IMG/VR virus record: IMGVR_UViG_3300022562_000872
Span: 1-46,924 of that record
Reading direction: 5' to 3' (one strand)
DNA: 46,924 bases
Source: a virus
Below are positions 1 to 45,526 of the stretch, one piece after another; within the stretch, counting starts at the first letter, position 1, and each line of letters begins with the position of its first letter. The position numbers were made by a program, and so were the translations under genes. The notes under the pieces were generated by a model. The model saw only the letters and a program-made list of their open reading frames with translations. It was not told the DNA's origin and ran no database searches.

Positions 1-144
1 TCCGACCGGCCGTGACGGCCAGCAGATGCCCGTGCTGGCACCGGGCTTTCACCCCGGCACAAGCTCAAACGTGGCGTACGCGGCCTCGCTGTCGGCGATC
101 TGCTGGGCCACCGGGTTCGTCACCCGCTGGCTGGCCGCGAACCG
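1..144. repeat. Left copy of the contig-end overlap
   Basis: These 144 bases are identical to 46569-46712. They cover the 3' end of the exported-protein gene and, on the minus strand below base 52, the first codons of the zinc-ribbon gene that is complete at 46348-46620. Both genes therefore read correctly only if the contig is closed into a circle. This is assembly overlap of a circular or circularly permuted genome rather than a packaged terminal repeat, because the match decays into diverged homologous sequence instead of ending at a molecule end. Confidence 0.9.
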
Positions 145-705
145 GGCCACCAGCGCGGCCTTGCAATCCGCGCTCGCCTGCTTGCCCACCGCCCACTTGC
201 CGTCCCAGAACTGCGTGGCGAGGCAGAACTTATACTGCTCGTCCGTCCGCATCTGAGTGCCGGTGATCGGCAGGGCCATCGTCACCTTGATGGTGGTTTC
301 AAGGTTGCCGGTCGGCGGCGGCGGCGGCACGTCCTGCTCGGTGTACGACCACGGCAGCTTGAGGGTGTCCGAGGTCAGGCCCCGGCGCTTCGTCCACAGG
401 CGCACCGTGTCCCGGATCGTCTGGCCGGGCGCGGGCTGCAGCAGCTCAAAGCTGTCCCGGCTGACACAGGGCGCGAACCGATGCGTGTGCGTGGAGTCCG
501 TCATGGGCGAGCGGGTCCGGATGAACAGGGAGTCCGGGTTCCCCGGACAGGTGATGTTCGTCACCGTGATCCGCACGTTCCCCGGTGCCACGGCCCGGAC
601 GCTCACCATGGCCTTCGGCCTCGGCTCCGCGCTGGCGGGCGTGGGCGAGCAGTTCATGCCAGTGAGGCCCAGCACCGCCAGCGCGGCCCACAGGATCGGC
701 TTCAT
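49..705 (-). CDS. Exported protein of unknown function, lysis region
   Basis: 218 residues with a signal-like N terminus: a hydrophobic stretch at about residues 4-17, Cys19, and an A-S-A before residue 27 that could be a signal peptidase I site. The context of Cys19 (G-M-N-C) is a poor lipobox, so lipoprotein status is doubtful. The mature part looks beta-rich with a five-proline linker near residues 130-135. ATG at 705 is preceded by GGAGGGG and overlaps the upstream stop as ATGA. It lies between the DUF5675 gene and the zinc-ribbon gene, so an outer-membrane role in lysis is conceivable but unproven. Its 3' end falls in the contig-end overlap and a diverged allele lies at the other end. 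Confidence 0.75.
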   Translation of the reverse strand: MKPILWAALAVLGLTGMNCSPTPASAEPRPKAMVSVRAVAPGNVRITVTNITCPGNPDSLFIRTRSPMTDSTHTHRFAPCVSRDSFELLQPAPGQTIRDTVRLWTKRRGLTSDTLKLPWSYTEQDVPPPPPTGNLETTIKVTMALPITGTQMRTDEQYKFCLATQFWDGKWAVGKQASADCKAALVARFAASQRVTNPVAQQIADSEAAYATFELVPG

Positions 706-1160
706 GTCCCCTCCGGGTTAATGCCGTGCGCCCACTGGACCGTGAGCCACGCATCGTCGTGGTGCTGCATCTCCTTCATGAACACCTCAAACGCCTCCCG
801 GCTGGCCACCACCGCCCGCTTGAGGGTGAGGGGCTTGCCCGGCGCATCTTCATCATGCACCCAGAGCTTCCCGCGCCGCAAGCCCACGCCGATGCACCCC
901 TTCACGTCCTCCTCCGTGTTGGCCCGGTGAATCAGGATGCGGCTGCGGCCCGGCACGTCCGTCACCCAGAACGTCTCGTACCCGCCCTTGTGGTAGACGG
1001 TCCGCACCAGCCGGTAGCGCCCGGCCGGGATGCAGCTCTCGCTGGGCTGGTTGTTCTTCCAGTCGTCCTCGACCGTGTGGAGGTGGGCGTGGCCCACCGA
1101 GAGCAGGCCGAACACCCCGTCGGCGGTGTTCTCGGTCCGGAGCAGGGTCAGCTCAAGCAT
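702..1160 (-). CDS. DUF5675 family protein, candidate lytic enzyme
   Basis: 152 residues. The pattern I-P-A-G-R-Y (44-49), then D-V-P-G followed by I-L-I-H-R-A-N-T-E-E-D and G-C-I-G-V-G (H78, C89), is the signature of the phage DUF5675 family. The paired H and C in an IH...GCI setting recalls L,D-transpeptidase-type active sites, but the enzymatic activity of the family is not something this sequence proves. It sits directly after a holin-like gene, the usual endolysin place, and no other lysozyme, amidase or peptidase of known type is visible, so it is the best endolysin candidate. Confidence 0.75.
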   Translation of the reverse strand: MLELTLLRTENTADGVFGLLSVGHAHLHTVEDDWKNNQPSESCIPAGRYRLVRTVYHKGGYETFWVTDVPGRSRILIHRANTEEDVKGCIGVGLRRGKLWVHDEDAPGKPLTLKRAVVASREAFEVFMKEMQHHDDAWLTVQWAHGINPEGT

Positions 1161-1386
1161 CAGCCGCGCCTTTCTGTGAGTGGTGCTCGACCGCGTTGGC
1201 CACGGCGAAGCTGCCGTAGACGGTCATGGTGGCCGTGATAAAGTGGGTCAGGATCGTGACGAGGTGCTCGGTCAGCTTCCCGGCGAACGCCAGCCCGATG
1301 GCTCCCAGCACCATCACGGCGTCTATGAGCAGCACCAGCTTGGCCATCTGCTCCTTGCGGGAGCCCTTCTCGGACGGGTGCATCAT
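1153..1386 (-). CDS. Holin-like small membrane protein
   Basis: 77 residues. A charged N terminus (MMHPSEKGSRKEQ) precedes two hydrophobic helices at about residues 16-35 and 41-65, followed by a short polar tail. Size, two-helix layout and position just upstream of the candidate lytic enzyme fit a class II holin that sets lysis timing in the inner membrane. Two adjacent ATG codons give alternative starts at 1386 and 1383; a third at MAKLVLL near residue 14 could make a dual-start holin/antiholin pair, which is only an inference. It overlaps both neighbours by a few bases. Confidence 0.7.
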   Translation of the reverse strand: MMHPSEKGSRKEQMAKLVLLIDAVMVLGAIGLAFAGKLTEHLVTILTHFITATMTVYGSFAVANAVEHHSQKGAADA

Positions 1387-1751
1387 GGCGGGTCAATCCC
1401 CTGTTCGTTAATGATCCGAGCGCACGGCACCCGCGCATCAGCCGCCGCCTGCCGGGCGGCTTGGCTGGGCTCAAGGCACCGCATGGACACCAGCATCAGC
1501 ACCAGCTCGCGGGTTTCCTCGTTGTCGTCGGCCAGCTGGTGGAACATGCTGTCCACCGTGCGCTTCCGCAGGGAGTCGTACACCTCCAGCTTCATGAGGC
1601 GCTCGTTCGTGCTGGTCCCCATGAACCCGATTGCGCCGAGCGCACGGGTAGCGACCCCGCCGAGCAGGGAGGTGATGGTCAGCACCCCGATGATCCACGG
1701 GAGCGTGGGCAGGCGGGGGCCGTTCCGGCGTCGGTCTACGGCAAGGATCAT
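1383..1751 (-). CDS. Small membrane protein of the lysis block
   Basis: 122 residues. One hydrophobic segment at about residues 18-42 (WIIGVLTITSLLGG onward) is followed by a charged helical stretch (NERLMKLEVYDSLRKRTVDSM) and two cysteines near the C terminus. It starts inside the stop of the giant protein gene (ATGA overlap) and overlaps the holin-like gene. I do not recognise a family; the position suggests a lysis accessory or virion membrane protein. Confidence 0.6.
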   Translation of the reverse strand: MILAVDRRRNGPRLPTLPWIIGVLTITSLLGGVATRALGAIGFMGTSTNERLMKLEVYDSLRKRTVDSMFHQLADDNEETRELVLMLVSMRCLEPSQAARQAAADARVPCARIINEQGIDPP

Positions 1752-4700
1752 GGCTGGGCTCGCATGCGTCGGATGTAGTCAGGGGGCGTATGGGGGGACA
1801 CCCCGCGCACCACGTCCACCAGCGCCGACCGCTGCACCTCGCGCTTCACTTCCTCCAGCGACTTCCCGGCCATGTCGGGGTTGCCCATCATCCACTCCCG
1901 CGCCACGCGGTCGAGGTAGGCCGGGTCGGTGAACAGCGGGCTGGTCTGGAACAGCTCCCCGGCGACATCCTTGCGGAGCGCCCCGATGAACGCGGCGCGT
2001 TCACTGTACGCCTCCGGCGTCTCGCGGGGAGTGGTGGGCGTGGCCTTGTCGCGGGCGATCCGGCTGGGGGCGTACCCCAGCTCGCCCGCCTGCGCCACGA
2101 CGGGGTTGTCAATGCGGTTGTCCGGGCTTCCGGCCACGGGGTTGAACAGGCGGTTCATGAGGCCGGTCCGGCCCCGGATCGGGTCGCCCCAGCCGGTGTG
2201 CCGGATCGGGAGCTGCTCGGCCAGTCCGGGCAGGCGGCCCTGAATCGCCTCCAGCGGCCCGTTCACGTCCCGGCTGAACCCGCTGGCGTTGGCCACCTCG
2301 TTGACGATGGACGGCACGATGCGGCCCGCCTGCGACTCCAGATACCGCTCGCTGGCCCGCACCGGGTCTTGCAGGGCGTCGAGCGCCGACTGGCTCCCGG
2401 TCAGGAAGGGCTGGTCGAGGATCGTGCGGCCCAGCGCCGAGGCGGCCCCGACGCCGAACCCGAGCGGCCCGCCTTCCTTGCTCCGGTGCTTGGCGATCTG
2501 GGCCATGGTGGCCCCGATGGCCATGCTGGTGCCGAACGGAGCCAGCCGCCCAATCGGCCGCCACTCCCCGTCAATCAGCATGGAGTTGGGGCTCTGGCCC
2601 TCGGCCACCTCCACCGCCCGCTCGCCGGGCTCGGTGCTGGCCGCGCCGGTCATGATCCCCTGCTCGTACAGGTACGCGCCCAGCGCCACCATCCCGGTGC
2701 CGGTCAGGTTCCGGGACAGCACCTCCACGGCCACCCGCTGCTTCCGGTTGCGGAGCGACCGCTCCAGCTCGGGCCGGAACGCGCTCCACAGGTTGTAGAG
2801 CCCCCGCGTGGTGCCGACGCCGGGCAGGTAGTCCATGGCGCGGGCCGTGATGTTGGCCGCCGTCCGCACCACCGGGAACTGGAACCGCATGGCCGCGTCC
2901 GTCACCTCGGCCGCCGCCGTGGCGGTCGGCCCCTCGATGGAGCGGAGCGCGTCGCCCGGTGCCCGCATGAGCTTCTTGCCCATGAGCGCAGCGGCCTCGT
3001 CGTTGTTGAACGTGATGCGCGTGGCCATCAGGTTGGCCTCAAAGCGCATGTCGTCCGGCGGCGCAGCGATCAGCTCCTGCGCCCGCTGCTTCGGGTTGGC
3101 CGCCCCCTCGCCCAGCGCCCGTGCCATGGCGAGGTCGGCAATCGCGCCCTCGTACGCGGCGTTGACGAGGATGCGGTCCGTCACGCCAAGCGAGCGGTAG
3201 ATCAGCTTCTGGGCCAAGTCCATGGCCACGTTCACCGGCGTCTCCGGATCACGCGCCAGCGAGAACATGTCAATGTTCGTCAGGTGCGGGAGGTCGTACC
3301 GGGCCAGCATGTCCGGACTGATTTCCGCGTTCCGGATGTATTCCCGCCACGCGGCCCACCGCTGCCCGGCCGGGGCCTCCATGGCGGCGTGGAAGCCCAT
3401 GGACCGGGCCGCCTGCTGCAGCCCGTGCCACGCGCCCCGGCCGATCCCCTCGACCTGCAGGGCGTCCGGCATGGTGGCCGTCCGGGTGCCGGTCGCCAGC
3501 GCCACCGCCCGGTCGAGCAGCACCCGCATGGGCGCGTTGACCCCGTGCTCCAGCAGGAGGTTGCCGCCGGAGCTGAGGAGGTCAATCCCGCGAGCGGCCG
3601 GGCGCGTGAACAGGCCCGCGTTGAGCAGGGTCACGATCTGCGCCGGGATGCTCGTCTTACGCAGGCGGGCGAGGTACTGCACCAGCCCGGCCCGGTCCTT
3701 GTCCTTCAGGAACCCCTCGATCTTCGACCGCTCCTCGCCGGTGAGCGGGCGGTCGAGCAGCTTCATCGTCCGGGTCCACCAGTAGGCCGGATCGTCCTTC
3801 AGGTTGGCCAACACCTTCAGGGCGTTGAGGTTGCGGCCCGCCTCGGAGCCGCCCCGCATGGCCCCGGACATCAGGTGGAGGAAGTCCTCGTCCATCTTGC
3901 TGGCATGCGCGAGGTTGGCCCGCTGCTCGGACACACTGAGCGACGGGTCCATGGACCGCTGCCAGAACAGCTCGGCGGTGTTCTTTTTCTGCACCGCCAG
4001 CGACGCAATCGCCAGCAGGGTGTGCCGGTCGGCCCGCTCCGGGTCCACGTCCATCAGGGCGTCCTCGCCCAGCCCCATCCGTTCAGCGGCAATCGCCCGC
4101 AGCTCGTCCCATGTCTCGACGCGGGGGGTGTCCCCGGTCAGGCCGCGCTCGTACTCGATCATCTGCACGACCTGCCCCGACAGCTCGGGCGGGAGGTCGA
4201 GCCGCTTGACGGCGTTCTCGGTCAGGCGGGGGAGCGGGCCCCGGCCTGCCACGGGCGGGGTGCCGCCCGGTCCGGGGCGTCCCTTGACGTGCGTGTCGTA
4301 CCGGGGCAGCTCGCCCGTGGGCTTGGGCGTCCGGCCCTCCAGCTGGCCGTGCGCCCCCCGCCGCAGGGCATGGACGCCCTTCATGGCGGCGTACAGGGCC
4401 ACGCCCCCCGCCGCTGCCCCCGCCGCGTACTTGGCAATCGTCTTGAGGTGGGACTGCAGCTCGGCGGCCTCCGGGTTGTCGCCCGCCTGCTGGGACAGCT
4501 CGGCGTACAGGCCGACGAGGCCCAACGGGCTGAGGGTCAGGAACTTCAGCCCCTTGCCCAGCACCGCCTGCCGAAGCCGATCCACGAACTGGTCGGGGAT
4601 GCGGACGGTCCACCCGGCCCGCACATCCTTCGTGGCGGTGCCACCGTTGCTCGGCATCATCTGCGCGATTTCCGACGAGGTGAACCCCAGCTCCTTCAGC

Positions 4701-37883: not shown

Positions 37884-38095
37884 GCCCCCTCCTTCGGGTA
37901 CACCATCAGCTGCACCTTGACCCGCTCTTGGCTCATGCTGTCGTACGCAAAGGCGGGGATGCGGTTGGCCTCGTCCTCCTGTGCCTCGCGGTGGAGCGAC
38001 TGCTCGATCATGGGCAGGAGGGAGCGGCGCACGGTGAACATGCGGCCGAACGCCTTGCCCACCGGCACCTCGGGCTCGCCAGTGTTGCTAGCCAC
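37880..38095 (-). CDS. Small early protein
   Basis: 71 residues from a GTG at 38095, placed by a strong GGAGGAGGTGG upstream; overlaps the preceding stop. Helical centre (RRSLLPMIEQSLHREAQEDE). Function is unknown. Confidence 0.5.
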   Translation of the reverse strand: MASNTGEPEVPVGKAFGRMFTVRRSLLPMIEQSLHREAQEDEANRIPAFAYDSMSQERVKVQLMVYPKEGA

Positions 38096-38432
38096 GGTCC
38101 ACCTCCTCCTTCCGGGCGGCCCGCAGGGCGAGCAGCTCCGTGAGCAGGGCGTTCTCCCGCTCCAGCGACGCAATGTATCCGCTCGGCAGCTGGCGAGCGG
38201 CGAGCCGGGCCGGGGCCGGGGCGAGCGCCGCCGCCGCCGGATCGGCCCGCTCCTGACTGGGCACCATGCCCAGCTCCTCGGGGGTGAAGCGGAACCCTTC
38301 GTGCTTGTCCCAGCGGGAGATGCAGCTCGGCGCACAGGGCACCGTGGCGGCAATCTCCTTCGCCGTCCCATCCTTCCGGCGGTACATCAGCACCGCCTGC
38401 CGTTTCGTCTCGCGGTTAATGAAGCGGGCCAT
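38088..38432 (-). CDS. IS3-OrfA-like helix-turn-helix protein
   Basis: 114 residues from ATG at 38432. The start (R-F-I-N-R-E-T-K-R-Q-A-V-L-M-Y) and A-K-E-I-A-A-T-V-P-C-A-P-S-C-I-S-R-W form a helix-turn-helix like that of IS3-type transposase OrfA. The end (L-E-R-E-N-A-L-L-T-E-L-L) is a leucine-zipper-like helix, also OrfA-like. No OrfB or inverted repeats are seen, so this looks like a domesticated DNA-binding protein in the recombination block. Confidence 0.55.
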   Translation of the reverse strand: MARFINRETKRQAVLMYRRKDGTAKEIAATVPCAPSCISRWDKHEGFRFTPEELGMVPSQERADPAAAALAPAPARLAARQLPSGYIASLERENALLTELLALRAARKEEVDRG

Positions 38433-39229
38433 CAGGCACCTTCCTGTGTTGAGTGTGATCCTTCCGATTCGGGTGTGTCCTCCCCTGCGTCCACCGCCTG
38501 CTCCAGCACGGCCTGCCACTGGCTGACCGATTCGCTGTCCGGGTTCTCGTCCACGTCAATGGCCTGCGCCAGCTCCCGGCTCTTGGGCAGCAGCTTGCTG
38601 ATGCTGCGGACCGGGCTCTTGAGCGCCATGGCGAGGTAGTCCGTGACCCACGGGCTGTCCGAGCGGTTGCTGCCCGGCGACCGGGCCCGGATCAGGTCCA
38701 CCTCCTTGCGGGTCATGACCCGCAGCACCGGGGGCCCGCCGTTCGCCATGTGGGCCACGGCGTAGCTGAACAGCAGCGTGGCCGGGGTGCGCTCGGCGTC
38801 GAGCTTGGGCCGGTGCAGGATGCTCGGCGTGGTGCCCTCGTCGTACGCCCAGTCGTCGCCCTCAAACACGTTCACGGCGCGGACCGAGGCGACCTTGCCG
38901 GTCCGGTAGATCAGCTCGATGTAGCCCTGATAGCCGATCACCAGCGTCGCCTGCTTCTTGTAGGGGATCAGGTAGGCGTGGTTGAACCCGCCGCCCACCT
39001 CCAGCCCCATCTCACTGGCCTGCAGCAGCCCCATGAACAGCGACTTCGGGCTGCACTCGTACAGCTGCGGCGTCCGTTCGCAGGCCATGAGCGCCATCTT
39101 CGCCATGCGGTGGGGCTCGATATGGCTGGCGGCGATCTGGGCAATGGCGGGCGTCAGCGCCTCCAGCCGGGCCTGCATCCGTTCCTTCGGCGTCTTGGGC
39201 CGGGTGGCCACGTTGGTGCCGGTACTCAT
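38432..39229 (-). CDS. RecT-family single-strand annealing protein
   Basis: 265 residues. S-T-G-T-N-V-A-T-R at the start, then M-A-L-M-A-C, S-L-F-M-G-L-L-Q-A-S-E-M-G-L-E-V-G and Y-L-I-P-Y-K-K-Q-A-T-L-V-I-G-Y-Q-G-Y-I-E-L are the classic RecT core. It anneals complementary DNA strands during phage recombination and replication, working with the exonuclease encoded just upstream. It shares one base with the HTH gene downstream. Confidence 0.9.
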   Translation of the reverse strand: MSTGTNVATRPKTPKERMQARLEALTPAIAQIAASHIEPHRMAKMALMACERTPQLYECSPKSLFMGLLQASEMGLEVGGGFNHAYLIPYKKQATLVIGYQGYIELIYRTGKVASVRAVNVFEGDDWAYDEGTTPSILHRPKLDAERTPATLLFSYAVAHMANGGPPVLRVMTRKEVDLIRARSPGSNRSDSPWVTDYLAMALKSPVRSISKLLPKSRELAQAIDVDENPDSESVSQWQAVLEQAVDAGEDTPESEGSHSTQEGA

Positions 39230-40212
39230 GCGTCCTCCTCACGGGGGTGACTGCTCTTGAACAGGAACCGGCGGGTGCCGGGCTTCGTGCTGGTGAACGG
39301 CTCCCACAGCTTGGGGTCGGGGACGTACTGCTCCACCAGCCCCTGCCAGTCCACCACGGTGCTGTCCTTCGTGCGCTTCCATGTGGCGCGGCCCACCGGG
39401 GTGACGAGGCCGGGGCGGTCGGCGATCAGCAGCTTCAGCTGGTTCTCCAGCGTCGTCTGCTTGACCGACAGGCGCTTCCCCTCGACCCGCACCGCCTCCA
39501 GCTCGGCCATGAGGTTGGTCGTCTCCACGTCGTCATAGACGGGCAGCGGGTCCATGGCCACGTCCTCGGGGAAGCGGGCCAGCAGGTACTGCTTCGCGCC
39601 CCGGCTGGCATCCATGGGCGGCTCGGTGCCGTCCACGACGTGCCGCCAGAACGCCTCGGCTTCGGCGAGGGCGGCGTCGAGGAACTCGTCGTTCCGCATC
39701 AGGTGGTACACCCGGAAGTCCGAGCCACCGATCAGGCAGGCCACGTCCCAGCGGCCCCGGTCCGTCACGAACATGCTCCACTGACACTGAGCATAGACGT
39801 GGGCAGGCACCTCCTCGCTCCATGCGGGGCCGTAGCCCTCGCCGTAGCGGGTCTGCTTGAAGTCCACGCCCCACGTCTCGCCTCCGGCGATCCAGTCCAC
39901 CATGCGGTCGGGGGTGCAGCTCCACGGGGTGTCCGTCATGCGAATGGACGTGCGGCCGTCGCCGGAGAGGGTGAGCAGCTGGCCGTGCTCCTTCAGCATG
40001 GCCTCCTGATAGCTCTCCGCGATCACGGGCTCCATCTTCAGGCCCCACGCCTGCCACGGCGTGTCGTCGCTGCGGGGCTCACTGAGCCCCCGCTTCTCCA
40101 GCCACACCTCAAAGGCCCCCTTGTACGGGCTGACCCCGAGGATGGCGGGCAGCTCGGATGCGCCCAGCGTCTCGCGCCGCGCCTCCAGCTGCTCGGCTGT
40201 GAACCCACTCAT
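39226..40212 (-). CDS. YqaJ/lambda-type exonuclease
   Basis: 328 residues. Helical start, then L-G-A-S-E-L-P-A-I-L-G-V-S-P-Y (about 16-30) and W-G-L-K-M-E-P-V-I-A-E (56-66). P-D-R near 101-103 and V-D-F-K near 116-119 give the PD-(D/E)XK site, and P-A-H-V-Y-A-Q-C-Q-W (136-145) adds the YqaJ-type Q motif. It resects double-stranded ends to load the RecT protein coded directly downstream. Overlap with RecT is four bases. Confidence 0.85.
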   Translation of the reverse strand: MSGFTAEQLEARRETLGASELPAILGVSPYKGAFEVWLEKRGLSEPRSDDTPWQAWGLKMEPVIAESYQEAMLKEHGQLLTLSGDGRTSIRMTDTPWSCTPDRMVDWIAGGETWGVDFKQTRYGEGYGPAWSEEVPAHVYAQCQWSMFVTDRGRWDVACLIGGSDFRVYHLMRNDEFLDAALAEAEAFWRHVVDGTEPPMDASRGAKQYLLARFPEDVAMDPLPVYDDVETTNLMAELEAVRVEGKRLSVKQTTLENQLKLLIADRPGLVTPVGRATWKRTKDSTVVDWQGLVEQYVPDPKLWEPFTSTKPGTRRFLFKSSHPREEDA

Positions 40213-40865: not shown

Positions 40866-41107
40866 GACGCCCGCTCCTTCCCGAACCTCTGGGCATGGGC
40901 GGCCCGATAGGCGGCGTCCTTGGCGAAGGCGATCACCTGTGCCTCGGAGCACTTCATGGTGAGCCACATCCGGACGGAGCGCATCTGGGGCGCGGTCCCG
41001 TCAATGGCGTCGAGCTGGGCGCTCAGGTAGGTGTGGACCGCTCTCGCATCCTGTGCCTCGCGGAGCAGGGTGCTGAGGGTGGCCATGGTGGGGCGCTGGG
41101 TTGCCAT
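40862..41107 (-). CDS. Early protein, first gene after operator promoter P3
   Basis: 81 residues with a helical pattern (LREAQDARAVHTYLSAQLDA). Its start is preceded by the 22-base leader shared with the DUF932 gene. Unknown function. Confidence 0.5.
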   Translation of the reverse strand: MATQRPTMATLSTLLREAQDARAVHTYLSAQLDAIDGTAPQMRSVRMWLTMKCSEAQVIAFAKDAAYRAAHAQRFGKERAS

Positions 41108-41123
41108 GTGTGAATCCTCACGT
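41102..41123 (-). promoter_or_regulatory. Shared 22-bp translation leader, copy 1
   Basis: Identical to 42890-42911. On the minus strand GTGA and TCAC can pair around GGAT, putting the AGGA ribosome-binding bases in a small stem-loop 5 bases ahead of the ATG. Confidence 0.55.
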
Positions 41124-41155: not shown

Positions 41156-41184
41156 AACTTACACTAGTCAGAATGTCCTGTCAA
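41156..41184 (-). promoter_or_regulatory. Operator promoter P3
   Basis: Minus-strand TTGACA and TAAGTT are 17 bases apart; the spacer starts GGACATTCTGACT, a degenerate GGACA-N3-TGTCC palindrome. It drives the gene at 40862-41107 and the exonuclease/RecT block. It overlaps the stop codon of the gene at 41181-41408. Confidence 0.75.
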
Positions 41185-41408
41185 GAGGCGGCCGGTTCTC
41201 CCACGGGCAGGCCGTTGGCCCGGCGCACCTCCGCTATCTCGTACGCCAGCCGGTTGTAGGCCACGTCGTACACATGGGCCAGCATCACGGTCGTGACGTA
41301 CTGGCTGATTTCCTCCTCGGTGTCGCCGTTGCCGCTGTTGTCGTTGAACGCGATCCACTCCACCATCTGCCGCAGGCGGCGGGTGAAGCGTACGGGGCGG
41401 GGGGTCAT
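41181..41408 (-). CDS. Small early protein
   Basis: 75 residues from ATG at 41408. Helical (MVEWIAFNDN, EEEISQYVTTVMLAHVYDV). The stop codon lies within promoter P3. Unknown function. Confidence 0.5.
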   Translation of the reverse strand: MTPRPVRFTRRLRQMVEWIAFNDNSGNGDTEEEISQYVTTVMLAHVYDVAYNRLAYEIAEVRRANGLPVGEPAAS

Positions 41409-41563
41409 GACGCGCCCCCTTCCTTGCGGAGCTGCTCCAGCGCCAGCGTCAACTGAAACAGGCGCTGTTCGGCGTCCACCTTCTGCTGCACCATCCAGTA
41501 CCGAAACCCCTCGGTAGTGTCTCCTGCGGCCACAGCCGCCTTCCATTCGTCCAGCAGCATCAT
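41405..41563 (-). CDS. Very small early protein
   Basis: 52 residues, starting with M-M-L-L-D-E-W-K-A-A and a helical end (FQLTLALEQLRKEGG). It fits exactly between two genes with four-base overlaps at both ends. Unknown function. Confidence 0.45.
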   Translation of the reverse strand: MMLLDEWKAAVAAGDTTEGFRYWMVQQKVDAEQRLFQLTLALEQLRKEGGAS

Positions 41564-41799
41564 GCGCTCCAGAGTTCGGGGATGGCGGCCTGCATGCCTT
41601 GGCGGCGCAGCTCACAGCTGAGAGCGTACTTCGCCTCGCACAGCCGCCGATGGGCTCGGGTTTCCACCCGCTCCAGCCGGATCAGCGTGGTGCCCTTGCG
41701 GTCCCCGGCGTAGTACCGCTCGATCCGGGCGTCAGCCCGCTGATATGCTTGCACCGCTCGGTCGTACCGCTGCCGCAGCGTTCGCAGGGTCTGGGACAT
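41560..41799 (-). CDS. Small early helical protein
   Basis: 79 residues from ATG at 41799 with GGAGGA ahead. Charged and helical with many Arg and Glu (RTLRQRYDRAVQAYQ), a cysteine pair near 54 and 63. Unknown function. Confidence 0.5.
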   Translation of the reverse strand: MSQTLRTLRQRYDRAVQAYQRADARIERYYAGDRKGTTLIRLERVETRAHRRLCEAKYALSCELRRQGMQAAIPELWSA

Positions 41800-41854
41800 G
41801 GCGTCCTCCGTGGGGCGGGCCCCGGCACCGTGCCGGAGCCCTGCCCGGTTGGGG

Positions 41855-42895
41855 TTAGCGGGGCCGGGCGGCCACCGCAACGAGGTCGTTCAGGACCGAC
41901 TGCTTGAGCTGCCCGTAGCTGCCGTCGTACAGCGACTGCAGGCGGTTGCTGCTCGGGAAGATGTCCTCCGTGCCGTGGTCGAGGGCCTGAGTGAGAGCGT
42001 TGTACGCCTCCCATGCCGAGTGATCGCCAGTGTGGCCGATCCCGTCCGTCCACAGCCCGGTCAGCTCGGCCCGGCGACGGACCGTCCGGTCCATGGCGAG
42101 GTCGAAGCGGCGCTGCGCCCCGTCGCCCTTGAAGTTCTCGCGGACCGGCATCGGCAGGGCGGGCTGCAGCACCAGCTGCTTGAACATGGCGTAGTCGAGG
42201 TGCGCCCCCTTCAGCTGGCGGTACTGGACGGCACACACCTCGTACCGCTCCACGATTCCCGTCCACAGGTCGAGCGCCGCATCCACCGTGCGGTTCGCCA
42301 CGTTGCCGGTGTGGCGCACCTTGACCCGCCGCTTGCGGCTCTGCTCGGCCATGCCGAGGGTGTTGGCGCAGACTACCCGAACCGGCGTCTCCCGCACCGT
42401 CACCACCGCCGACCCGTCGTGGCTGTTGCTGACCAGCCCGAACGGCACCACTTCGTCGGCGAACACTTCCTGCACGATGGGGGACGTGATGTTGAAGCGG
42501 ATCATGCCCCAGATCGTCCGGCCTTCCCGCAGCGACCCGGCCGTTTCCCACGTCGCCAGCCCGTTGTCCACCAGCGGCTGGACAGCGCCCAGTGCGTCGC
42601 GGTTCTGCAGGGGGCGGTAGCGGGAGCCGACGACGGCCACGGCGCGGTTCCGGTCCTCGCGGACCACCAGCTTGGAGCCGGGCACTTCCAGATAGTCGCC
42701 GTTCCCGAGGTCGTGGTAGACGGGCTTGAGCGTCACGTCCCAGTCGAGCCCGCTCTGCACCAGCGCCTCGTCCAGCGTCTTGGGCGCTTCGGCGAGGACG
42801 ACGCCCTCCCGGTGCCACGGCGTCTCGATCACCGAGAACATTGCCTTGCGCTCGGTCCCGTCGGCCTGCAGCATCGTGTCGAGTTCGTGTGCCAT
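41855..42895 (-). CDS. DUF932 phage protein
   Basis: 346 residues from ATG at 42895. P-W-H-R-E-G near residue 26, Y-H-D-L-G-N-G-D-Y-L-E-V-P-G, and Y-R-P-L-Q-N-R-D-A show the DUF932 / phage-plasmid-like pattern, with V-V-C-A-N-T-L in the second half. These proteins are common in phage early regions; their role is not known. The shared 22-base leader and promoter P2 sit ahead of it, and it ends in TAA. Confidence 0.75.
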   Translation of the reverse strand: MAHELDTMLQADGTERKAMFSVIETPWHREGVVLAEAPKTLDEALVQSGLDWDVTLKPVYHDLGNGDYLEVPGSKLVVREDRNRAVAVVGSRYRPLQNRDALGAVQPLVDNGLATWETAGSLREGRTIWGMIRFNITSPIVQEVFADEVVPFGLVSNSHDGSAVVTVRETPVRVVCANTLGMAEQSRKRRVKVRHTGNVANRTVDAALDLWTGIVERYEVCAVQYRQLKGAHLDYAMFKQLVLQPALPMPVRENFKGDGAQRRFDLAMDRTVRRRAELTGLWTDGIGHTGDHSAWEAYNALTQALDHGTEDIFPSSNRLQSLYDGSYGQLKQSVLNDLVAVAARPR

Positions 42896-42911
42896 GTGTG
42901 AATCCTCACGT
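42890..42911 (-). promoter_or_regulatory. Shared 22-bp translation leader, copy 2
   Basis: Same sequence as 41102-41123, covering the ATG of the DUF932 gene and its ribosome-binding site. Confidence 0.55.
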
Positions 42912-42948
42912 TGGGGTTGGCCACCGGACCACCCGGCGGCTGAGAACA

Positions 42949-42977
42949 AAGCTACACTAGACATTTTGTCCTGTCAA
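42949..42977 (-). promoter_or_regulatory. Operator promoter P2
   Basis: Minus-strand TTGACA and TAGCTT, 17 bases apart; spacer starts GGACAAAATGTCT, a near-perfect GGACA-N3-TGTCC palindrome. It drives the DUF932 gene and those after it. Confidence 0.8.
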
Positions 42978-42986
42978 GTCCGACTA

Positions 42987-43223
42987 TCAGTCGCCGCGTG
43001 GGAGCAGCTCGTACTCGCCATCGTACAGGCCCACCCCGTACGGGTCGTCAATCAGGGCGGGGGTGGCGATCCAGTACCGGATGTGCCCCTCGCCGGTGGG
43101 CTGGTTCGTCGCCGGGATCACCGGGACGATGGCCCCCTCCTGCAGCTCGGGCAGGCCCTTCGCCCAGCCGGTAACCCACCCGGCGGGGTAGTGCTTCTGG
43201 GTGAGCAGTCGAACGTGTTGCAC
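42987..43223 (-). CDS. Small early protein
   Basis: 78 residues from a GTG at 43223 with AAGGAG ahead. Strand-rich, with I-V-P-V-I-P-A-T and R-Y-W-I-A-T-P, ending with an acidic tail. Function is unknown. Confidence 0.5.
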   Translation of the reverse strand: MQHVRLLTQKHYPAGWVTGWAKGLPELQEGAIVPVIPATNQPTGEGHIRYWIATPALIDDPYGVGLYDGEYELLPRGD

Positions 43224-43225
43224 GG

Positions 43226-43489
43226 TCAGCTCCTTGCGGTGGCGGCCTTGCGGGCCTCGGCCTTGGCACGGCGCAGCTGACCCCGGAACACGTTGCTTCG
43301 GGCCTGCGCCGCTTCGATCAGGACGGTCGTGAAGTAGTCGAGCCGCTTCATGGCCCCCTCGGCCTCGGCCAGATGGGGGAAGGAGGTCGGGTGCTGCTTC
43401 AGCAGGGCGAACGCCTCCACGGCCTGCCGCTCGGCGTGTTCATGGTACTCACGGGCCGAGCGCAGTTCGGAACGCTTGTCACGGGTCAT
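43226..43489 (-). CDS. Small early helical protein
   Basis: 87 residues, charged and helical throughout (AREYHEHAERQAVEAFALL). Basic end with K-A-E-A-R-K-A-A. Unknown function. Confidence 0.5.
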   Translation of the reverse strand: MTRDKRSELRSAREYHEHAERQAVEAFALLKQHPTSFPHLAEAEGAMKRLDYFTTVLIEAAQARSNVFRGQLRRAKAEARKAATARS

Positions 43490-43492
43490 GGG

Positions 43493-43768
43493 TTAGCCCT
43501 CCATCTTGAGACGGGGTTCGTTGGTCGAGTAGCCGTCCGTGGCCACCGTGGTGAGGCCGGACTCAAACCGGAAGCCAGTGTAGGCAGTGTCCGGCTCGTT
43601 GGCGGCCCACTTCTTCACCGCCCGGATCGCGTCCTGCTGGGCCCGGTCGTAACTGGTGGCGCTGGAGAGATGCGAGAACGTGAACCGGAGAGAGAAGCTG
43701 CCACCGTCCATCGTGTAGAACGCGGTGATCCGGCCGGTCGTCTGGAATCGCGGGGTATAGCGGCGCAT
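43493..43768 (-). CDS. Small early protein
   Basis: 91 residues with strands R-I-T-A-F-Y-T-M and S-L-R-F-T-F and a helix Y-D-R-A-Q-Q-D-A-I-R-A. Function is unknown. Ends in TAA. Confidence 0.5.
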   Translation of the reverse strand: MRRYTPRFQTTGRITAFYTMDGGSFSLRFTFSHLSSATSYDRAQQDAIRAVKKWAANEPDTAYTGFRFESGLTTVATDGYSTNEPRLKMEG

Positions 43769-43779
43769 GGTGCCTCCGG

Positions 43780-44076
43780 TTAGCGGTCGGAGCGAACGAC
43801 GTGTTCGCCCAGCTTGATGGCCTTGGCAGCGGAGCGGGGATAGGACAGCCCGCCGTCCACTTCGCTGATCTGCACTTCACGGGGGGCGTCCACAAACACA
43901 TAGGTCTGGCGAGTGGAGCCGTACCAGCGGGGCCGGTTCTCACGGGCCAGCTTGTAGGCCGTGGCTCCGTCCCGACCCTTGCCCCAGCAGTTCGGGCCAA
44001 GCACGACGACGCAGCGGTCCTCGGCGGCCTTGTGGGCCTTGAGCAGTTTGAGCGGGGGAGAGTGGCGAGTAGACAT
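43780..44076 (-). CDS. First early gene, after operator promoter P1
   Basis: 98 residues from ATG at 44076 with GGAGG ahead; longer readings to 44556 run through the promoter and are not used. Contains L-K-L-L-K-A-H-K-A-A, C-V-V-V-L-G-P-N-C-W-G-K-G and T-Y-V-F-V-D-A-P-R. First gene expressed in the early minus-strand unit. No family recognised. Confidence 0.5.
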   Translation of the reverse strand: MSTRHSPPLKLLKAHKAAEDRCVVVLGPNCWGKGRDGATAYKLARENRPRWYGSTRQTYVFVDAPREVQISEVDGGLSYPRSAAKAIKLGEHVVRSDR

Positions 44077-44131
44077 CAGGGAACCTCCGTCGTGAAGTGA
44101 GAGCCATCCGGCAGTCCGGCGACGTGGATCA

Positions 44132-44160
44132 AAGCTAGAGCGGACAAAATGTCCTGTCAA
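44132..44160 (-). promoter_or_regulatory. Operator promoter P1, leftward early
   Basis: Minus-strand TTGACA and TAGCTT, 17 bases apart. The spacer starts with the perfect palindrome GGACATTTTGTCC. Divergent from P4, with about 92 bases between the two -35 boxes. Confidence 0.8.
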
Positions 44161-44252
44161 GGGGCAAATATCATTTGCTGCGGGGGCGGCGCGACCGCGC
44201 TCCATGGGTAGCACGGGGGTGTGACAATCGGCGGGGCGACCAGCTGAAGGGC

Positions 44253-44281
44253 TTGACAGGACAATCTGTCCGGCGTACTTT
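44253..44281 (+). promoter_or_regulatory. Operator promoter P4, rightward
   Basis: TTGACA (44253-44258) and TACTTT (44276-44281) 17 bases apart, with the perfect palindrome GGACAATCTGTCC at 44259-44271. It drives the four plus-strand genes. Confidence 0.85.
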
Positions 44282-44320: not shown

Positions 44321-44563
44321 ATGTTCGCCACGTTCCAGACGCTGCACCACGATGGCCGCGTCAACGGCGAGGTCCGGATTAACCCGGCCTTCGTCACCAC
44401 GCTGGAGGATGGCCCGCACGGCGAGCTGTACCGCTTCGCCGACCTGCAGACCACCGAAATGCGGATCACCTCCACCCGGATCACGCTGAAGGACAAGCGG
44501 GCTTTCGTGGTGAAGGGGACGCAGGACGAGGTTGCCATCGAGCTGAAGCTGCACACGGCCTAA
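44321..44563 (+). CDS. First gene of the rightward unit
   Basis: 80 residues. Strand-rich with F-A-D-L-Q-T-T-E-M-R-I-T-S-T-R-I-T-L-K and K-R-A-F-V-V-K-G. GAGGT precedes the ATG, about 40 bases after the P4 -10 box. Function is unknown; candidates include an anti-host protein expressed early. Confidence 0.6.
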   Translation: MFATFQTLHHDGRVNGEVRINPAFVTTLEDGPHGELYRFADLQTTEMRITSTRITLKDKRAFVVKGTQDEVAIELKLHTA

Positions 44564-44661: not shown

Positions 44662-45000
44662 ATGGACACACCCCTGAACACACCGATGGACTGCCACTCC
44701 AGAGTGCATGCCACGAACCGCCTGCTGCTGGACGCGGCGGGGCCGCTCGGTGCCTTGCCCGAACCGCAGCAGGCCCGGATTCGGTTGCGGTGTCTGGAGG
44801 CGGCCCTGACGCTGGAGCAGGCCGCCGCCAACGACGGCCTCTACGGTGCCGACCGGGACGACCTGATCGCCGCCACGGGGCGTCGGTGCCGGGAGGATGG
44901 TGCCCACCCCCTGCCGGACGGCAAGCACGGGGCCCTGCTGTTCGTCGGAGCGTTGGACGACGTGACCGGCACCACCATGCTGTCGAGGGTGCTGCCATGA
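44662..45000 (+). CDS. Rightward early protein, unknown
   Basis: 112 residues with AGGAGGT before the ATG. The middle is helical (QQARIRLRCLEAALTLEQAA). The stop overlaps the next start as ATGA. No family recognised. Confidence 0.55.
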   Translation: MDTPLNTPMDCHSRVHATNRLLLDAAGPLGALPEPQQARIRLRCLEAALTLEQAAANDGLYGADRDDLIAATGRRCREDGAHPLPDGKHGALLFVGALDDVTGTTMLSRVLP

Positions 45001-45281
45001 CCCCGGCTAACGACAGTCGCCCCACCGTGCGGTCCATGGTATCCCCCCGGCCGCACCACCACCGCGAGGACGAGTTCGTGGTGGAGCTGCACCGCACGTT
45101 CCTGAAGGTCCGGCCCAAGCGGAGTCGCCGGGGTGGCTCCGCTGAGGTCATTGTCCCGGTGGGCTTGCTCTACCAGCAGGCCCTGACCGCCCGTGTCGAG
45201 GCGGCCCGCCGGGATCGTCAACGCCAGCGCCGCGAAGCAGCGCGGTTGCGGGCTGCATCCAAACCCAGACGGAGGAGATAG
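44997..45281 (+). CDS. Small basic rightward protein
   Basis: 94 residues from ATG at 44997. The C terminus is extremely basic (RRDRQRQRREAARLRA, then RRRR), suggesting nucleic acid binding. Overlaps both neighbours. Function is unknown. Confidence 0.55.
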   Translation: MTPANDSRPTVRSMVSPRPHHHREDEFVVELHRTFLKVRPKRSRRGGSAEVIVPVGLLYQQALTARVEAARRDRQRQRREAARLRAASKPRRRR

Positions 45282-45526
45282 TGCTGCTCGCCGCCCCATC
45301 CCCGACCCCTGTGCGTCCTGCCACGGCCCGGATGATCCGGACGTGGCGGCTCGCTCGGTTGAACCGTGACACCGGCCTGCCCATGACGCAGGCCGAGGTC
45401 GCGGCGTTGTACCGTGTGACCGCCCGAACGTGGAGCCGGTACGAGAATGGGGGGAGTGTGCCCGGTTGGCTGTCCGACCTTGTGCGGCGCGACTACACGC
45501 CGCCCGGCTACTACACCACGGGCTAG
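45281..45526 (+). CDS. Small helix-turn-helix protein, candidate regulator
   Basis: 81 residues from GTG at 45281 with GGAGGAG ahead; the stop of the previous gene overlaps by one base. M-T-Q-A-E-V-A-A-L-Y-R-V-T-A-R-T-W-S-R-Y-E-N-G-G (about residues 35-58) is an Xre-type helix-turn-helix, as in phage repressors. Transcribed from P4, it may bind the GGACA-N3-TGTCC palindrome and control all four promoters. That link is inference. The stop shares CTAG with the stop of the gene on the other strand. Confidence 0.6.
   Translation: MLLAAPSPTPVRPATARMIRTWRLARLNRDTGLPMTQAEVAALYRVTARTWSRYENGGSVPGWLSDLVRRDYTPPGYYTTG

Follow-up and report, generated by a model that had tools for sequence, protein, structure and literature searches.

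Putative operator palindromes inside four early promoters of a phage and a candidate small autorepressor

The virus record IMGVR_UViG_3300022562_000872 was analysed in its entirety as a single window of 46,924 bases (70% guanine plus cytosine, GC), and is labelled G000 among its relatives. This phage contains four promoters (P1 to P4), each with a palindrome inside its spacer, and a small helix-turn-helix (HTH) protein encoded in the operon that follows P4. The early genes are probably shut off by this protein, which would act on the dyads of P1 to P4 as an autorepressor of the Cro or Aca kind. The sites, their geometry, the order of the operon, the recurrence of the arrangement across the family and the lack of an integrase match are direct observations.

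Promoters and spacer palindromes

P1 (TTGACA-N17-TAGCTT, 44132..44160, minus strand) would drive the leftward early operon, P2 (TTGACA-N17-TAGCTT, 42949..42977, minus strand) lies upstream of a DUF932 gene, P3 (TTGACA-N17-TAAGTT, 41156..41184, minus strand) precedes a small gene and the RecE/RecT region, and P4 (TTGACA-N17-TACTTT, 44253..44281, plus strand) would drive the rightward operon. The four share the start TTGACAGGACA, a TANNNT -10 box and a spacer of 17 bases, and all have the form of a sigma-70-type promoter (TTGACA and TANNNT, 16-18 bases apart). The putative operators in the spacers are GGACA-TTT-TGTCC in P1 (44142..44154) and GGACA-ATC-TGTCC in P4 (44259..44271), both with perfect arms, GGACA-AAA-TGTCT in P2 (42959..42971), with one mismatch, and a degenerate GGACA-TTC-TGACT in P3 (41166..41178), with two. 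No two sites have the same three centre bases (TTT, AAA, TTC and ATC), and the arms are conserved, which is the pattern expected of an operator.

The exact 11-mer TTGACAGGACA is present four times in the record, compared with about 0.005 expected under a second-order Markov model, and its 18-base version, allowing at most one mismatch, matches P1 to P4 only. A strict promoter scan of the 46.9 kilobases (kb), requiring a -35 box that begins with TTG and has at least 5/6 identity to TTGACA, a spacer of 16-18 bases and a TANNNT box, returned P1 to P4 and no other site. Perfect copies of GGACANNNTGTCC were identified at P1 and P4 only. With up to two mismatches the same palindrome has 48 matches versus 29 expected in this GC-rich record; the loose palindrome alone is therefore not rare, and the evidence is its combination with the promoter boxes. 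A preliminary description of this DNA had listed the four promoters with these positions, strands and 17-base spacing, a GGACA-N3-TGTC(C/T) palindrome in three spacers and a weaker form in P3, and no further copies by eye; the scans agree on each of these points.

The resemblance among the sites could also come from a promoter cassette merely copied around the genome, with a palindrome of no regulatory meaning. The common ancestry of P2 and P3 is indeed clear: they are alike at the end of the spacer, and each precedes the same 22 bases of leader and start, ACGTGAGGATTCACACATGGCA (42890..42911 after P2 and 41102..41123 after P3, both minus strand), so that the two are probably copies of a single cassette. 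As a full account of the palindromes, copying has a negligible probability, given that the arms persist though the centre differs in every copy and that dyads at the same point of the promoter, with other letters, occur in relatives far above shuffled spacers.

Two further observations concern these promoters. A second perfect dyad, GCAAAT-ATC-ATTTGC, is located at 44164-44178, just upstream of the -35 box of P1, and is the sole perfect copy in the record. A Bacteroidetes-type sigma factor, considered from TAnnTTTG -10 boxes, was dropped, the relatives showing ordinary TANNNT boxes.

Spacer dyads and the HTH gene in related phages

An exact-site scan of 2.9 million viral contigs returned 23 contigs. 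Two of them (L005 and L012), tested by their terminase, both represent the phage G001 (50.4 kb), one of them in permuted form. The identity between G001 and the window is 50% for the capsid protein, 45% for the portal, 42% for the terminase and 29% for RecT. Alignments of capsid and portal led to about 45 further related records.

In G001 the promoter reads TTGACA-GGACA-CGG-TGTCC, which holds the one perfect copy of the palindrome in 50 kb. Dyads with other letters were identified in the spacers of further relatives: GGACC-AAT-GGTCC in G020, CGGA-CAT-TCCG in G014, CCGACA-TCG-TGTCGG in G433 and CCCGAC-N5-GTCGGG in G436. G072 has CGCAAA-G-TTTGCG at one promoter and CGCAA-AGA-TTGCG at another, and G446 has GGCAA-AA-TTGCC with three weaker variants. 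Loss of the palindrome in relatives that keep the flanking boxes was one of the outcomes named beforehand as fatal to the proposal; instead, the arms are identical in G001, and the others have dyads of different sequence at an equivalent point of the promoter. With the start of the -35 box as base 1, the dyad centre is base 13 in 9 of the 13 HTH-bearing phages and in 13 of the 24 strict promoters that these 13 phages have (0.3 expected and a maximum of 3 in 5,000 spacer shuffles), and perfect arms of at least 5 bases occur in 13 of the group's 35 distinct promoters with an exact TTGACA box (2.9 expected and a maximum of 10 in 2,000 shuffles), in tests that ignore kinship among the phages. Perfect copies of a phage's own palindrome are confined to promoters in G001, G020, G022, G433 and G072.

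Other palindromic arrays were seen in this group. G020 contains a series of GGACnGTCC 9-mers in steps of ~12 bases at about 47788-47850 (L220 7788-7850), between divergent operons and adjoining the operator promoter. G422 (L291) has five promoters within 4.3 kb (90-4368), with palindromes of the TAGCGA-N5-TCGCTA type reaching into the -10 box.

The candidate repressor is encoded by the gene that comes fourth, and last, in the P4 operon (45281..45526, plus strand; GTG start after GGAGGAG), and is a protein of 81 amino acids (aa). The preliminary description had P4 transcribing a small HTH protein; the gene is in the P4 operon as proposed, in fourth rather than first place. The three genes ahead of it encode proteins of 80 aa (44321..44563), 112 aa (44662..45000) and 94 aa (44997..45281), all on the plus strand, and none of them matches a known family in Pfam or PHROG where tested. 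In most carriers the HTH gene is on the same strand as an operator promoter and about 1 to 7 kb after it, and it is downstream on the same strand in all carriers with an assignable promoter, with two exceptions: in G457 the operator promoter identified is on the downstream side of the gene, and in G463 a long distance separates the gene from the promoter, which is perhaps only a match by chance. The gene is the last before a strand switch or a convergent operon in G000, G001, G014, G020, G022 and G115. Among near-complete phages, 10 of 12 with the HTH gene and 1 of 7 without it have a dyad of 5 bases or more in a spacer (Fisher p=0.006). Synteny and co-occurrence thus support the HTH protein as the probable operator binder.

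The recognition helix is [TS]ART-W in both G000 and G001, two phages that share GGACA arms despite a portal identity of only 45%, and ERS-W in G020 and G022, which have GACC arms. This is suggestive of an operator sequence that follows the recognition helix.

Homologues of the window protein were found in 13 records, two of which are Gemmatimonadota genome bins, and every member of the family matches Pfam HTH_31 with E below 0.01. The best solved matches of the family profile are Aca2 chains (E=1.7e-5, covering the HTH only) and 7xi5, named Aca10 in the Foldseek table. Pfam Aca2_YdiL is matched by only 5 of the 13 homologues, the window protein not being one of them. The AlphaFold model of the window protein shows four helices and gives high confidence to the HTH; beyond the HTH there is one helix (62-71) and a low-confidence tail. 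No match to the protein was found in named phages.

Several findings weigh against the assignment of the dyads to this protein, or against a constant position for them. The window protein itself is just under the Pfam HTH_31 cut-off (25.7 vs 27 bits), and the Foldseek matches of its predicted fold (HigA2, Aca10 and Aca2) are all insignificant, with E of at least 0.1. The dyad centre is not at base 13 in G022 (CGACC-AGC-GGTCG, base 15) nor in G115 (base 17). The phages are related (the portals of G433 and G436 are 96% identical), so the dyad counts are not independent events; the arms nonetheless differ in sequence. Across 12 phages the co-variation of helix and operator is weak (Mantel r=0.34, p=0.03), and p rises to 0.055 after control for portal identity. 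Finally, spacer dyads were found without an HTH protein of the window family in three fragments (G418, G422, the 20 kb of which contain none, and G455) and in G419, where the -35 box is TTGACG.

The last two findings would fit palindromes that are operators of some other phage protein, and the window does encode another weak candidate, an HTH_28-like protein at 38088-38519. This explanation is unlikely: the HTH gene and the spacer dyad co-occur, the operator promoter stands upstream of the HTH gene in nearly all carriers, and several of the HTH-negative records with a dyad are fragments.

Additional proteins were identified behind the operator promoters of two relatives. A MoxR-type AAA ATPase (bpMoxR) is encoded in G001 (L204 154-2779), where it adjoins a von Willebrand A protein, and in G020 (L220 6575-7678). 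In G001 the operon ending with the HTH gene also encodes a protein with a weak match to sigma-70 region 4 (L206 8976-9458).

Proposed shut-off circuit, gene content and host

In the proposed circuit the host polymerase would fire P1 to P4, which are host-type and sigma-70-like, as soon as infection begins. The product of gene 4 of the P4 operon, the HTH protein, would build up and bind the single dyad of each spacer as a dimer, excluding polymerase. Both arms would then be turned down together, the leftward one from P1 to P3 (DUF932 and RecE/RecT) and the rightward one from P4, including the HTH gene itself. P2 and P3 would be shut later or less, and would escape longest, because of their degenerate right arms. 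We infer the binding, repression, dimerisation and timing from an arrangement which, at the sequence level, has the layout of a Cro-like early autorepressor, a small HTH protein from an early operon with operators overlapping the early promoters. A single regulator for both arms, blocking of polymerase, a P3 that is perhaps less sensitive and a self-limiting circuit through the HTH protein had all been suggested earlier. The persistence of the dyads in relatives and the conservation of the HTH gene support this general proposal, as does the placement of that gene, which in almost all assignable carriers follows an operator promoter and has its orientation.

The genes that would be controlled on the left arm are a first gene after P1 (43782..44076, minus strand), which encodes 98 aa matching no known family, the DUF932 gene after P2 (41855..42895, minus strand; PF06067, E=1.6e-38), and, in the leftward early region, a RecE-like exonuclease (39226..40212, minus strand) and a RecT-like annealing protein (38432..39229, minus strand). 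The record also encodes a terminase, a portal and a capsid protein. No strict sigma-70 promoter was identified ahead of the late genes (window 1-40800).

The regulator could instead come from the host, with the phage making use of a host factor, such as a repressor of the SOS type, that binds the palindrome. Phages with host-responsive early promoters are known, and P1 to P4 look host-type. Judged from the phage genomes alone, such a regulator is nevertheless very improbable here: the operator letters vary among related phages at a constant position, as would be expected of a partner encoded by each phage rather than of a single conserved factor of the host.

The divergent pair of early promoters with shared operators resembles lambda-type control, and the operators differ between relatives as immunity groups do. 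Both features would suit a temperate or plasmid-like phage in which the palindrome serves long-term repression of lytic promoters and superinfection immunity. This option is improbable as well. Searches for tyrosine integrases and serine recombinases (PF00589 and PF00239) gave no match in any of 17 near-complete members of the group, with control genomes positive, so the integration module that a lambda-type temperate circuit requires was not found in them (plasmid-like maintenance genes were not searched for). Moreover, the HTH gene is within the early operon to be silenced and no separate maintenance promoter was seen. Shut-off of the early genes by the HTH protein during infection is the more probable reading.

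The host of the phage is probably a Gemmatimonadota bacterium. The capsid protein has strong matches in 2 of 395 Gemmatimonadota genomes, in a search confined to that phylum, and when 84,980 genomes were searched for DUF932 matches, the top three all came from one Gemmatimonas genome bin. Among 50,697 named phages the portal has no match, and the capsid protein reaches only about 25% identity; single-protein searches with RecT and with the portal gave no matches. Relatives of the DUF932 gene were rejected as relatives of the phage, no other window gene being common in the compared stretches, with the exception of G014. Three of the records that have only the DUF932 gene in common in the compared stretch (L028, L033 and L044) contain repeated promoters with the -35 box within or abutting a palindrome, for example CGCTTGACCCCTCAAGCG and CTTGACCGGGCAAG.

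Comparison with known systems

The early control proposed for this phage is of a known type, and differs from the published Aca layout in scope. Aca repressors are encoded by a small HTH gene at the operon end, one inverted repeat is always in the core promoter in the published set, and they repress by blocking polymerase (PMC9410906, PMC8434428). The likeness to Aca1, Aca2, Aca10 and others is in a small HTH gene that closes the operon and an inverted repeat in that operon's own core promoter, here the P4 operator (44259-44271) with the HTH protein as gene 4. The differences are that four promoters on both arms, including recombination genes, have the repeat here, versus one acr operon, and that no known acr gene is present. 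With 81 aa, the window protein also lacks the C-terminal dimerisation domain of Aca2, judging from the AlphaFold model, and its placement in any named Aca family is uncertain.

Lambda-type Cro is a small early HTH protein that lowers the early promoters of both arms in lytic growth through three-part operators. The window protein is likewise a small early HTH protein and a candidate for turning down both arms; here, in contrast, there is one dyad per promoter, no integrase was found and no opposing CI-type repressor was identified. T7 Gp5.7, a small winged-HTH-like DNA-binding protein, shuts off host-RNA-polymerase promoters on the genome of a lytic phage (PMC5569994). The predicted role of the window protein, a small phage DNA-binding protein against host-polymerase promoters, is similar, with the difference that a defined palindrome is present in each promoter. 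Mycobacteriophage stoperators are asymmetric repressor sites with many copies per genome, mostly outside promoters. Several copies of one putative repressor site are also found in the window, but these are palindromic and confined to promoters, the perfect copies being only at promoters. No study of regulation in Gemmatimonadota phages was found in the open literature.

A broader scenario, which we regard as speculative and rather unlikely, is that an Aca-like repressor of a counter-defence operon became the master early switch of the whole phage group. The small genes that separate P4 from the HTH gene, and which match no known family, would then be anti-defence genes, and operator and repressor would co-diversify into a shut-off code private to each lineage at one fixed point of the promoter.

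The small uncharacterised genes adjoining the HTH gene are candidates for counter-defence. The phage group supplies natural pairs of recognition helix and operator for work on HTH specificity, and the promoter-operator rule would offer a simple route, from sequence alone, to the early promoters of such genomes and to the repressor that belongs to them.

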